Positions 22,469-32,338 are shown, counted from the stretch's first letter. The stretch: DNA of 39,152 bases from Spirochaetales bacterium (GCA_016929605.1 JAFGIM010000142.1:1-39152); one strand, 5' to 3'. Translations and numbers: made by a program. The notes: a model not told the origin generated them from the sequence alone.

Positions 22469-24055
22469 TCAATACGAAGCAAGGATAGAAGCGATTCGCT
22501 CCTTACCAATAATCTTCATAAACGAGGCAAGCCGTGGCCCTTGGTCCTTGGCAATAAGCGCCTGATACACGGCGGTAAACAGGGCCTTTGGCTCAAGGCC
22601 AGCCTCCTGGGCAACAGCATAGACCAGCTCGGACAAGCCCTTTTCATCCACGCCGTCCATCTTGGGAAGCACCTCATCGCGAATCTTCCGAACTGCGGTC
22701 AGTTCGTTAACTCCTAAAGTGGCGACTGAACCATCCTTCCTGAGCGCGAAACGGAAGTCTTCTGGTGCGCATTCGGTAATCCAATACCAGGCGCAGCGAG
22801 AGCGAGTCTGTAACCGTTCAACTTGATCGGGGTGAACATCCCCAAAGGAGGCAATAACCGCATCTATATCTCCATCGTTGGTTTGTAAAAGATTGCATAA
22901 ATGACGGAAGGGAACCTGATACGAAGCCATGGTGGGCAACTCGCCAACCTGGGATAACTCCCAAATACGGCGTTCTTTTGCGTACACCTCTTCGTTCTTG
23001 GCCTTTTCCAGACCCCAGGCAATACGCTCGGTCTTGTCGTAATCCTCGTAAATCTTGATAACATCAAGGTCAAAGCTGATAACAAACTCGGTATTCGGTC
23101 GGGTTCCGGCAAACAGATAACGGGCGATTTCCGGCTGATACACGCGAAGGATATCCGGCAAATCGACAACCTTTCCCTTGGAGGAAGACATCTTTCCCGG
23201 GGTACCCTTAATACCAATAAAATCATAGCGGAAGGTTACCGGCGCCTCCCAGTCAAAAATTTCCTTGGATACAAGACGAGCGGTATCGAATGAACCTCCC
23301 TGGGAATGATGATCCTTCCCGGCCGGTTCAAAGACCGTTTTTTCATATTTCCAGCGCATAGGCCAGTCTACCCGCCAACCAAGCTTAACGCCCTTTGCAC
23401 TACGAATGTCCACGGTTTCGCTATGCCCGCATTCACATGAATAAGAAAGGCCCCATTCACCATCCCAGCCGGTAATCGAGGTTGTGTCCCGGTTACACGC
23501 ATTGCAGAATATGGAGACAGGCCAATACTCCTCGGCCTCAGGAATTTGATGAGCCTCATCCCGATAGCGATTAAGGCAATCCTTAATCCTGGCCCTGTTG
23601 TTTAGGGCAGTCTTCATCCCTTCGGCATACATACCGCTGCGATAGCGTTCAGCCTGATACAGGAATTCGGGTGTAATGCCGACAGTGGGCAACACTGATT
23701 CAACGTCCACCTCATGATGGCGGGCATAGCTTTCGTCGCGGCCAAAGGTATCGGGAACCATGGTAATGGGGAAGCGAAGAAACTTTTCAAGCTCCTCCGG
23801 TTTGGGCATATTGGCGGGAACCTTGCGGAATACGTCGTAATCATCCCATGAGTAGATAAAGCGAACCTGTTTGCCTCGGGCGCGAAGGGCGCGGACGACA
23901 AGGTCCACCGAGATAATCTCGCGGAAATTTCCGATATGAACGGTACCGGAAGGGGTGATGCCGGAAGCGCAGGTATACAATGGAAGGTCGCCGCGCTCGC
24001 GGATAATCTTGTCGGCGGTTTGATCCGCCCAGTGAATTGCTCTCGTGTTGTCCAT
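22469..24055 (-). CDS. lysS: Lysyl-tRNA synthetase, class I
   Basis: TPSGTVHIGNFRE (HIGH), GTPGKMSSSKG (KMSKS), CNAC/CECGH zinc-like cysteines. Start MDNTRAIHWADQ at 24055. Confidence 0.96.
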   Translation of the reverse strand: MDNTRAIHWADQTADKIIRERGDLPLYTCASGITPSGTVHIGNFREIISVDLVVRALRARGKQVRFIYSWDDYDVFRKVPANMPKPEELEKFLRFPITMVPDTFGRDESYARHHEVDVESVLPTVGITPEFLYQAERYRSGMYAEGMKTALNNRARIKDCLNRYRDEAHQIPEAEEYWPVSIFCNACNRDTTSITGWDGEWGLSYSCECGHSETVDIRSAKGVKLGWRVDWPMRWKYEKTVFEPAGKDHHSQGGSFDTARLVSKEIFDWEAPVTFRYDFIGIKGTPGKMSSSKGKVVDLPDILRVYQPEIARYLFAGTRPNTEFVISFDLDVIKIYEDYDKTERIAWGLEKAKNEEVYAKERRIWELSQVGELPTMASYQVPFRHLCNLLQTNDGDIDAVIASFGDVHPDQVERLQTRSRCAWYWITECAPEDFRFALRKDGSVATLGVNELTAVRKIRDEVLPKMDGVDEKGLSELVYAVAQEAGLEPKALFTAVYQALIAKDQGPRLASFMKIIGKERIASILASY

Positions 24056-24065
24056 AATAGCGATA

Positions 24066-24094
24066 AGTATAGCGAATTCACCACAGGAGGACAA
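24066..24094 (-). promoter_or_regulatory. Putative lysS promoter, ultra-short leader
   Basis: Minus strand TTGTCC (rc of 24089-24094), 17 nt, TATACT (rc of 24066-24071), 10 nt to ATG 24055; no SD. Confidence 0.5.
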
Positions 24095-28261: not shown

Positions 28262-28831
28262 TTATTGAGCCTGTTCTCCAAGCTTAAAGGCCTTCATGTT
28301 AATCTCTACGAGTCGAGGATCTTTGCGGGCAAAGATATCATGGACACTTTTTTCCAAAGAGGCCTCGCTCACCGGAAGGTGGCGCGAAGCGGCTCCAATC
28401 AAGGCCATATTAACCGCCTTCAGGTTCCCCGCCTCGCGGGCAATCTGTTCGGCATGAACGATGGTGCTCCTCGGAAGGGCTCTGATCTTTTTGTACAGAT
28501 CTTCTGTGTCGGGGTAATCCGGAATATTAACAAAGGGTTCAGAGGCAGTTACCAAAATACCCTCTGCCTTTAAGAAAGATAGGTAGCGTAACGACTCAAG
28601 CGGTTCCATGGACAACAGCATATCTGCGCCCCCAAGCGGTATCAGATCGGAATGAATCTTTTTATCCGAAATACGCATGTGGGCTTGAACCCCTCCGCCC
28701 CGCTGACTCATTCCGTGTACCTCGGACTGTCGAACCTCAAATCCGTCAATCATAGCCCCACGGGCAATAATGGTCGCCAGAGAAAGAACTCCCTGTCCAC
28801 CAACTCCAGCAAGAATAATATCGTAGGTCAT
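28262..28831 (-). CDS. iorB: Indolepyruvate oxidoreductase subunit beta
   Basis: DIILAGVGGQGVLSLATIIARGAMIDGFEVRQSEVHGMSQRGGGVQAHMRISD. Confidence 0.92.
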   Translation of the reverse strand: MTYDIILAGVGGQGVLSLATIIARGAMIDGFEVRQSEVHGMSQRGGGVQAHMRISDKKIHSDLIPLGGADMLLSMEPLESLRYLSFLKAEGILVTASEPFVNIPDYPDTEDLYKKIRALPRSTIVHAEQIAREAGNLKAVNMALIGAASRHLPVSEASLEKSVHDIFARKDPRLVEINMKAFKLGEQAQ

Positions 28832-30690
28832 TGTGTATCTCCCCCATTATCGCGGCCAGATTGGCCTTCCACGAGTCGCTCAAATTCTTCTATCTTTTCT
28901 ATAAAGTGGTTAATTCCCTGCCGCCAAAAATCCGGCGATTCAATATCAAAACCGGCTCTGGCGGTTACCTTTACCGCATCCATTCTTCCCGTATCGAGCA
29001 AGATATCCTCATAGACACCGGCAAATGAAGAGCCCTCCTGACGGGATCGGCCGTACAGGGCAAGAGCAAATAGCTGTCCAAAGGCATAGGGGAAATTATA
29101 AAACGCAAGATCGCTTGAATAGTAATGTCCCTTTACCAACCACATATATGGATGAAGGGCCTGGCCATCAAGGCCGTCGCCATACGTTGCCTTTTGATTG
29201 GCAATCATCATCTGACATAGTTGCTCGACAGGAATTTCTCCCGAAGCGCGTGCGGCAAACACATCACGCTCAAAATAATAGCGGGAAAGTATGTCTACCA
29301 AAATCTGGCAACCGTCCTGCAAGTGCATTTCCAAAAGCCCCAATTTATCGGCTTCCTTCATGTGTTCCAATTCGGCGTCGAATACGAGGGTTTCCGCGAA
29401 AATTGAAGCGGTTTCTGCCAGGGTCATGGGAGATCCCATCAACAATCCGCTTTCATCCTTCATCACTTCGGCATGAAAAGCATGACCGAGCTCATGAGCC
29501 AGGGTGAGCACAGAACTGAATGTCCCGTCAAAATTGGCCAGAACCCTGCCCTGCTTAACCAGTGGCATAAAGGTAAAGTATGCGCCTCCCACCTTGCCTG
29601 CACGAGGTTCGGCGTCTATCCAGGATTCCGCAAAGGCCCTTTCGGCAAAGGCACCCATGCGTGGTGAGAAGTCGGCAAAGATTTCGCAAATCCTTTGTCG
29701 CGCCTTATCGAATGTCCATCGCGTGCCGGCGTTCCCGACCGGGGCAAACAAATCGTAAAAGGCACAGGAAGAAAGGCCCATGAGCCGAGCCTTGGCACCA
29801 AGATAGCGTCTCCAATGGGGCAGGGCTTCTTCCATTGCGTGAATAAGAGCAGAAAGAGATCGCTCGCTTAATAATCCCTGATGGGTGGATTTGGCAATTG
29901 CCGCTTCAAAAGAAGAGCCCTTCCAGGATCTTCGTCCGTTCAGCGTAATCGTCGCTCCCTTTATACCGTTAAGCGCACTGGCGACCGGCAAGGAAATCGT
30001 CTTGCAAAGCTCAATTTCTTTTTCCCATGCCCTTTTCCGAATCTCGCGATTGGCATCGTGAGCAAGGGCTCGTAACTCCACCAGGGTTTTTCGCTCTCCT
30101 GTCTTTTCATCCCATAGAGCCGAGGCGGTAGAGGTCATCTGCTCCTGAAGTCTGCTCCAGGCAGAAGCTCCGCTTCGCGCCAAATCGGCCGCAAGATCTT
30201 CCTCGGCTGGACTCATTTGCCTGGCCTGCCAAAAAATCTCGTCCTCTATAAGATGTTGATACTGCTGTAAATCGCCGCTACGAGTAAAAAGAGCGGTTAT
30301 GACGTCGGCATTGTCTTTTAGCGCATTCAGGTACAGCGTGAGCAGTCGATTAAAGGGAACCAGTAATTCCTCTACCCGATTAAGGTTGTTCATCGCCTGC
30401 GTATTGGTGGTATCGACTGAGTAACGTGCATAACAAAACGAGCTAAGCGTTTCGCTCAGGATATGAATCCTGCTGCGCAACTCTATCATCCGGGTGAGCC
30501 ATTCGGCAGCGGCGATGTCTCCGCCCTTGTGGGCAAAGCCTTCTTGAGGAACTTCGGCTAAGAGACGCTCGAACTTTTTAGCGCCAGAAGAAAGCTCCTC
30601 CAACGCCGAAAGATATACAGGATCGTCAAAACCGACAAAGATACTCTCAAGATTCCATCGGGGAACCATGGTGTCTGCGACTTCAGCCAT
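28828..30690 (-). CDS. M3 family oligoendopeptidase (PepF type)
   Basis: TLAHELGHAFH zinc motif; overlaps iorA (ATGGCTGA) and iorB (ATGA). Confidence 0.93.
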   Translation of the reverse strand: MAEVADTMVPRWNLESIFVGFDDPVYLSALEELSSGAKKFERLLAEVPQEGFAHKGGDIAAAEWLTRMIELRSRIHILSETLSSFCYARYSVDTTNTQAMNNLNRVEELLVPFNRLLTLYLNALKDNADVITALFTRSGDLQQYQHLIEDEIFWQARQMSPAEEDLAADLARSGASAWSRLQEQMTSTASALWDEKTGERKTLVELRALAHDANREIRKRAWEKEIELCKTISLPVASALNGIKGATITLNGRRSWKGSSFEAAIAKSTHQGLLSERSLSALIHAMEEALPHWRRYLGAKARLMGLSSCAFYDLFAPVGNAGTRWTFDKARQRICEIFADFSPRMGAFAERAFAESWIDAEPRAGKVGGAYFTFMPLVKQGRVLANFDGTFSSVLTLAHELGHAFHAEVMKDESGLLMGSPMTLAETASIFAETLVFDAELEHMKEADKLGLLEMHLQDGCQILVDILSRYYFERDVFAARASGEIPVEQLCQMMIANQKATYGDGLDGQALHPYMWLVKGHYYSSDLAFYNFPYAFGQLFALALYGRSRQEGSSFAGVYEDILLDTGRMDAVKVTARAGFDIESPDFWRQGINHFIEKIEEFERLVEGQSGRDNGGDTQ

Positions 30691-32338
30691 TGGTGATGGC
30701 GTCCTTTTTTTTACGCAGACGGAAAGCCTCAAGACATTCGCGAACCATAATTATAACCGAAGGTCCGCGATACTCCGCTTCTTCCACCAGGATACGTGTG
30801 TTTTCCTCAACGGTTCCCGGCTTTGTCTCGATAACCCGCAAGTGCTCGCGTTCAATGCCCAGTCCTAGCAGAACCTTTTCAAGTTGACTGGAGGGAAGCA
30901 TGGTGGGCTGGCAGCCGGTCATTGCGACGATGGAATTATCAAGAATGATTATGGTAACCGGCGTTTTAGTTGACACTGCGTCCACAATACCCGTAAGACC
31001 TGAATGATAAAAAGTTGAATCCCCGATAACGCCAAAGGCATACTTATATCCGGCAAGGGATGCGCCGCGGGCCATACCAATGGAGGCGCCCATACAGACG
31101 ATGGTTTCGATGGCCTTAAGGGGATTAGTCGCACCAAGTGAGTAACAGCCAATGTCGGCAGTAACCACGGTGGACACCTTTCCCTCTTTTTTATTAAGAA
31201 GCTCAACGGCGGCATTTAATGCGGAATAGGAATCGTGATGTGGGCAGCCCTTGCAGAGCTGAGGCGGACGACCCGGCAAGTCTGCGGGATTGAACGAAGC
31301 GCTCACGCTGTGATGAGCGGGAAGGCCAAGGGCAGTGCGTACCAAGTCGGGATTAAGCTCTCCGGTTCGGGGAAGATGGCCGGTAAACTTTCCGATTATT
31401 TGATTATGCGAGGGAACAAGGCCACGCAATTGGCGTTCAATAAAAGGCATGCCTTCTTCTATAACCAAAATTGTTTGGGCGGTTTGCGCAATGGCACGAA
31501 TGTGTTCCAGGGGCAGCGGAAGGGCTGCTATTCTAAGCACAGAGGGTAGACCCTTGTCTGCGCACAGAGCCGTATAATCGCTGCGGTTTTCCTCAAAGTA
31601 GTTGTGTCCAAGTCCACTGGTAATAATCGCAATATCCGTTCGCTTCGGATTAAGAGTCAAGTGTGTTCGCTCATAGCCGCACGACCAGGATACCAGCTCT
31701 TCTTGTTTGGAAATCATCTTGAGGTAGTTCTTGCGGGCCAAAGCGGGAAGAAGCATCCAGTCCGCAGGAGAGCCCTTCTCAAGATCGTTTTGGCTCCTGA
31801 TGTTGGCAACAGGATGAACAGGGGCGCGCGAGTGCGAAAGTCGGGTTACCATGCGCATAATAACGGGAACATGTAATCGCTCGGAAATTTCAAAGGCCTC
31901 TGCCACCATCTCGTACGCTTCTTGCTGGTTAATCGGCTCGAACAGGGGAACCATGGCAAAATCCGCATAGTAACGGGTATCCTGCTCGCCCTGGCTAGAA
32001 TGCATCGAAGGGTCATCGGCGACCACACAGATAAGACCGCCCTTGATTTGACAAAGGGATGAGTTCATAAAGGGATCGGCGGCGACATTAAGCCCAACGT
32101 GCTTCATGGTAACAATAGCGCGCTTGCCGGCAAAGGACACGCCAAGAGCAGACTCGTACGCGGTTTTTTCGTTCGCGCACCACTGAGCAACCGGACCGGA
32201 AGCACGCTCAAAATTATCAACCAGATACTCAAGAATCTCGGTTGACGGGGTACCAGGGTACCCGAAACAACCGGATACGCCTGAATGAAGCGCTCCAAGG
32301 GCAAGCGCCTCGTCACCTAAAAGAACAAGTTCGTTCAT
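30683..32338 (-). CDS. iorA: Indolepyruvate oxidoreductase subunit alpha, without C-terminal ferredoxin domain
   Basis: GCFGYPGTPSTEILEYL, VVTADIGCYSLGATNPLKAIETIVCMGASIGMARG, GDSTFYHSG, TGCQPT. SD GGAG; start 32338. Confidence 0.92.
   Translation of the reverse strand: MNELVLLGDEALALGALHSGVSGCFGYPGTPSTEILEYLVDNFERASGPVAQWCANEKTAYESALGVSFAGKRAIVTMKHVGLNVAADPFMNSSLCQIKGGLICVVADDPSMHSSQGEQDTRYYADFAMVPLFEPINQQEAYEMVAEAFEISERLHVPVIMRMVTRLSHSRAPVHPVANIRSQNDLEKGSPADWMLLPALARKNYLKMISKQEELVSWSCGYERTHLTLNPKRTDIAIITSGLGHNYFEENRSDYTALCADKGLPSVLRIAALPLPLEHIRAIAQTAQTILVIEEGMPFIERQLRGLVPSHNQIIGKFTGHLPRTGELNPDLVRTALGLPAHHSVSASFNPADLPGRPPQLCKGCPHHDSYSALNAAVELLNKKEGKVSTVVTADIGCYSLGATNPLKAIETIVCMGASIGMARGASLAGYKYAFGVIGDSTFYHSGLTGIVDAVSTKTPVTIIILDNSIVAMTGCQPTMLPSSQLEKVLLGLGIEREHLRVIETKPGTVEENTRILVEEAEYRGPSVIIMVRECLEAFRLRKKKDAITNG

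Follow-up and report, generated by a model that had tools for sequence, protein, structure and literature searches.

An M3 oligoendopeptidase gene between the subunit genes of a ferredoxin-domain-less IOR in Treponemataceae

In the window analysed here, a stretch of 39 152 nucleotides from a Spirochaetales genome, the gene for an M3 oligoendopeptidase (pepF) lies between iorA and iorB, the genes for the two IOR subunits, and these are followed by two PaaK-like genes and a gene for an ACT protein in a tight minus-strand unit (Table 1), as the sequence-only reading had it. The most economical reading of this arrangement is that a general oligopeptidase was caught by the operon and retained for co-expression: a general M3 pepF gene probably moved once into the iorA/iorB junction of an ior-paaK-paaK-ACT operon, and PepF would not be needed for IOR. 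The relocation is real and inherited but, as a change of gene order, fairly ordinary; of greater interest at this locus is the ferredoxin-less IorA, which is a known enzyme in variant form. Absences reported for the window genome rest on searches of a draft assembly that is 78% complete.

Table 1. Genes and start-stop overlaps of the ior operon region in the window
Feature	Position	Strand	Description
iorA	32338-30683	minus	551 aa; TPP-binding large subunit of an indolepyruvate/arylpyruvate oxidoreductase (IOR); POR_N and TPP_enzyme_C domains; TIGR03336 positions 4-538 of 595
iorA/pepF overlap ATGGCTGA	30683..30690	minus	8 nt; pepF start within iorA end
pepF	30690-28828	minus	620 aa; M3_fam_3 oligoendopeptidase; HELGH zinc motif at residue 399; TIGR02290
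pepF/iorB overlap ATGA	28828..28831	minus	4 nt; pepF stop and iorB start
iorB	28831-28262	minus	189 aa; small subunit; NF005324, Pfam POR
paaK1	28242-26920	minus	PaaK-like AMP-forming arylacetate-CoA ligase; AMP-binding and AMP-binding_C_2; TIGR02155, 480 bits
paaK2	26856-25552	minus	second PaaK-like ligase; TIGR02155, 558 bits
ACT-domain pair protein (ACT_8)	25537-25121	minus	PF19571, 92.9 bits
LacI-type regulator (Peripla_BP_3)	25108-24104	minus	Peripla_BP_3; synteny shared with relatives

Both pepF junctions are exactly as initially described: the TGA stop codon of iorA sits within the first overlap, and the first 8 nt of pepF are also the last 8 of iorA. Downstream of iorB, the genes are separated by 9-63 nt as calculated from the coordinates, and good Shine-Dalgarno-like stretches can be read directly before iorB (GGGGGAG) and paaK1 (AAGGAG). 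To judge from this layout, the unit is probably co-translated. In scans for promoters and terminators, the counts equalled those expected from shuffling, and neither a start nor an end of transcription was assigned on that basis. Among the gene calls in the window, the operon includes no gene for a transaminase, phosphotransacylase or kinase. The ACT-pair protein is a putative sensor of aromatic amino acids or aryl compounds. The product of the LacI-type gene contains the sensor domain, with no Pfam match for the LacI DNA-binding domain, so that its N-terminus may have diverged; 9 nt past this gene, positions 22469-24094 appear, by eye, to encode a class I (archaeal-type) lysyl-tRNA synthetase, and this neighbourhood is retained in several relatives.

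The order iorA-pepF-iorB is found in 11 of the 12 genomes of an uncultured Treponemataceae genus and in Brucepastera parasyntrophica, so that the arrangement, for which the sequence-only reading had proposed a search across spirochaetes, is not unique to this genome. The longer order iorA-pepF-iorB-paaK1(-paaK2-ACT-lacI) is shared across the same genomes; in one member of the genus (G083), the iorA-pepF-iorB set is divided between two contig ends. The overlap between iorA and pepF is -8 in 8 of the 10 genus genomes tested, the remaining two showing -4 and +2, and the spacing between pepF and iorB is -4 in 6 of the 12 loci compared, with +3 to +42 in the rest and +117 in Brucepastera. In the latter genome (L016, L168), which is closed and scored 88% completeness, frame changes break pepF and paaK1, reflecting either indel errors or gene decay; pepF is frame-broken in G072 as well.

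The adjacency of iorA and iorB, stated in the sequence-only reading to be the normal condition, is indeed the rule. Both ior genes are present at 59 named loci; pepF intervenes in 10 of these, and in 47 of the 49 others, the two genes are no more than 50 nt apart, with the 4-nt ATGA overlap in 37. Of the two that depart from this rule, one has a 279-nt gap and the other a 1041-nt insert, the latter in a termite-gut spirochaete (L073:1324-2364), where the inserted sequence resembles, by eye, a FitA/VapB-type antitoxin with a PIN-domain toxin and reads like a separate, independent invasion of the iorA/iorB junction. In five termite-gut Treponema loci (L039, L043, L044, L053 and L057), iorA is present without iorB in the fetched flanks.

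Two lineages show other states of the operon. In the sister genome G002 (96% complete), iorA and iorB are joined directly with a 4-nt overlap, no M3_fam_3 PepF is found, and the sole M3 protein is only 24% identical. In genus g5, pepF and iorB are adjacent in G025 and G005 (L151, L159, L160), with paaK1 alongside in G025, and iorA is located at another site, beside a sodium:solute symporter and a lipoprotein-like gene. In the PepF tree, the operon-borne proteins form one group (support 93/93, 94% of bootstraps), the sister of which is the standalone pepF of genus g15, a genus without a full-length IorA match; the IorAs of the genomes with the pepF operon likewise form one group (99/94), and g5 falls within both. 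This topology gives one origin for the pepF insertion, and the simplest history would include one insertion followed by one loss, in G002, and one split, in g5. Alternatively, G002 may never have gained pepF, the branching inside the group being not fully resolved.

PepF itself has the features of a general peptidase. It scores 584.4 bits against TIGR02290, above the curated cut-off of 561.7, contains the HExxH motif, and is the only M3_fam_3 copy in the genome. Proteins of this family are encoded in 67 of the 118 genomes of the Treponemataceae, and 37 of these 67 have no window-type IorA; outside the operon group, in the genera examined, pepF stands alone among unrelated neighbours, with or without IOR. 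Because the gene is standalone in related genera and absent in G002, PepF is better viewed as a relocated general oligopeptidase than as a dedicated aromatic-peptide enzyme. PepF is present in 30 of the 39 genomes with the window-type IorA compared with 37 of the 79 without it, a difference confounded by genus structure and not amounting to independent evidence because genus g3, in which that IorA is missing, dominates the sample; of the nine genomes with this IorA that miss PepF, two show partial matches. The protein evolves under purifying selection (dN about 0.12-0.19, dS about 0.8-1.2), with dN somewhat greater than that of IorA, and no other enzyme of the unit is so weakly conserved, those encoded by the ior and paaK genes included: within the genus, identity to the window proteins is 52-61% for PepF, 69-79% for IorB and 85-93% for PaaK2. 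No paper on pepF within ior operons was found in a literature search.

The IorA of the window scores 462 bits against TIGR03336, below the cut-off of 650.9, with the C-terminus missing. POR_N and TPP C-terminal domains are both found, but the match stops at position 538-541 of the 595 positions of the model, and in the alignment, the C-terminal 2x[4Fe-4S] ferredoxin domain, with its eight distal cysteine columns, is absent. Among 90 related ferredoxin-less IorA rows, Cys362, Cys365 and Cys398 are invariant and Cys535 is 98% conserved; in an alignment with the Sulfolobus OFOR beta chain 5b48_B (E 0.003), the first three fall on its Cys-x2-Cys pair and its third Cys. Cys535 is a candidate fourth ligand, and IorA would hold one proximal [4Fe-4S] cluster. 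The predicted structure of IorA has a mean pLDDT of 72 and is of low confidence near residues 343-365; with 8ys5_A as its best PDB match, it only supports the oxidoreductase fold and does not bear on cluster geometry. IorB scores 263.7 bits against NF005324 (cut-off 222) and 163 against TIGR03334, below the cut-off of 205.8.

All complete best matches of this IorA are ferredoxin-less, including those from Acidobacteriota, Calditrichota and Planctomycetota, and the ferredoxin-less form is widespread and independent of pepF. In the IorA tree, the window-type ferredoxin-less proteins stand well apart as a group, and a second such group, from Spirochaetota (L183-L197), is placed among the ferredoxin-bearing IorAs, so that the domain has probably been lost or gained more than once. 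In the loci of this second group, a PaaK-like ligase gene lies upstream of iorA-iorB, with an ACT-like protein encoded as well in L187. The possibility that the insertion of pepF caused the shortening of IorA was rejected, given that relatives without pepF have equally short IorA; so was replacement of the lost domain by a separate ferredoxin gene in the operon, with a nearby ferredoxin at only 2 of 80 loci. The window genome also encodes a second, full-length IorA (contig C96), which scores 698 bits, above the TIGR03336 cut-off; after its gene come iorB and the gene for a PaaK-like ligase.

The two directions in which the operon may run, fermentation and aryl-acid salvage, are not separable from sequence. 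Both ligases score below the TIGR02155 equivalog cut-off of 646.3 and can be considered members of the PaaK-like family, a match that does not assign their substrate. A reading in which, under ACT control, arylacetates are imported and activated by the two ligases, the ferredoxin-less IOR reductively carboxylates the products to give arylpyruvates from which Phe, Tyr and Trp are made, and the peptidase provides a general amino-acid supply has somewhat less than an even chance of being correct; it concerns the direction of the operon and is compatible with the relocation of pepF. It is favoured by the presence, in one operon, of genes for two AMP-forming ligases and for an ACT-pair protein, by the methanogen precedent and by the situation in Bacteroides, where IOR adjoins an AMP-forming ligase shown to be active on arylacetate (PMC13285125) and the authors reasoned, in 2026, that the pair may be biosynthetic because AMP-forming ligases favour CoA-ester formation (PMC13285125). 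In G002, G034, Brucepastera and g5, iorA is preceded by a sodium:solute symporter gene, consistent with import of either an aryl acid or an amino acid, but this gene is not beside the window operon, and its product resembles proline/pantothenate-type models with scores below their cut-offs. Furthermore, the genus encodes markers of de novo aromatic synthesis, namely EPSP synthase (aroA) in 12 of the 12 genomes, prephenate dehydratase in 11 of 12 and TrpB above the cut-off in 11 of 12, and because of these enzymes, salvage is not obligatory. On balance, we lean slightly towards salvage.

The sequence-only reading had also linked the peptidase to a route from peptides through aromatic residues to aryl-CoA; the coupled unit is a reasonable idea, given its tight packing and the order kept in relatives, whereas an aromatic-peptide role specific to the peptidase is not supported, PepF being a member of a general family that is standalone elsewhere. 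It is unlikely that a dedicated pathway of aromatic peptide fermentation operates in which the peptidase supplies aromatic residues for transamination, IOR oxidises the products to arylacetyl-CoA and the PaaK-like ligases work in reverse for release. The conserved coupling of the three genes, the retention of the pepF-iorB linkage in g5 after the operon split, the full set of proximal-cluster cysteines, suggestive of an active redox enzyme, and the established function of the Pyrococcus IOR in peptide fermentation (cited in PMC13285125) are all compatible with it, but the operon lacks the transaminase, phosphotransacylase and kinase, AMP-forming ligases usually favour formation of the CoA ester (PMC13285125), the peptidase is dispensable in G002, and dozens of related ior operons do without one. 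There is little probability that iorA-pepF-iorB is a selected functional unit in which PepF hands aromatic residues, through co-translational proximity or in a complex, to the single-cluster, ferredoxin-domain-less IOR. Nevertheless, the recurrent -8 overlap and the pepF-iorB pair of g5 count against simple relocation, so the linkage may mean more than chance. An assembly artefact or a decaying pseudogene arrangement, which the draft state of the genomes and the broken frames in Brucepastera and G072 could suggest, is already contradicted and extremely improbable: the order is repeated in 12 independent assemblies with mostly intact reading frames, and dN is much lower than dS.

Under the preferred explanation, a single relocation, the operon enzymes would interconvert arylpyruvates and arylacetyl-CoA or arylacetates, and the single general M3 oligoendopeptidase gene of the lineage would have moved once to the site between iorA and iorB. 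IorA and IorB would remain one oxidoreductase of two subunits, carrying thiamine pyrophosphate and only one [4Fe-4S] cluster, the proximal one. Lacking a ferredoxin domain of its own, the enzyme would pass its electrons straight to soluble ferredoxin. PepF would be translated from the ior message via the start-stop overlap and would act as an ordinary cytosolic oligopeptidase, dispensable for IOR.

Compared with known systems, the enzyme shares with IorAB (TIGR03336/TIGR03334) the subunits, TPP domains, proximal-cluster cysteines and PaaK-like neighbours, but differs in that IorA lacks the C-terminal 2x[4Fe-4S] domain and the subunit genes are split by pepF. The predicted single proximal cluster and direct use of external ferredoxin are shared with two-subunit 2-oxoacid:ferredoxin oxidoreductases, such as that of Sulfolobus tokodaii (5b48), although the order of subunit fusion differs and the sequence similarity is distant (E 0.003). 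As in the Bacteroides system of IOR and AMP-forming arylacetate-CoA ligase (PMC13285125), the IOR genes lie beside a ligase gene; no peptidase is reported there, whereas the window operon has a pair of ligase genes and one for an ACT-pair protein. Genes for both enzyme types of methanogen-type aryl-acid salvage, an arylacetate-CoA ligase and an IOR, are present, and the IOR may or may not work in the carboxylating direction that such salvage requires. Relative to the M3 oligoendopeptidases of TIGR02290, PepF is above the cut-off and has the HExxH motif, and only its location inside an ior operon is different.

The locus offers a dated example of the capture of a housekeeping gene by the operon of a two-subunit enzyme, complete with natural controls for the capture of pepF, namely a sister genome without pepF and a genus with the split operon. 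Also noteworthy is the widespread ferredoxin-less form of IorA, to which annotation tools give the name of ordinary IOR.
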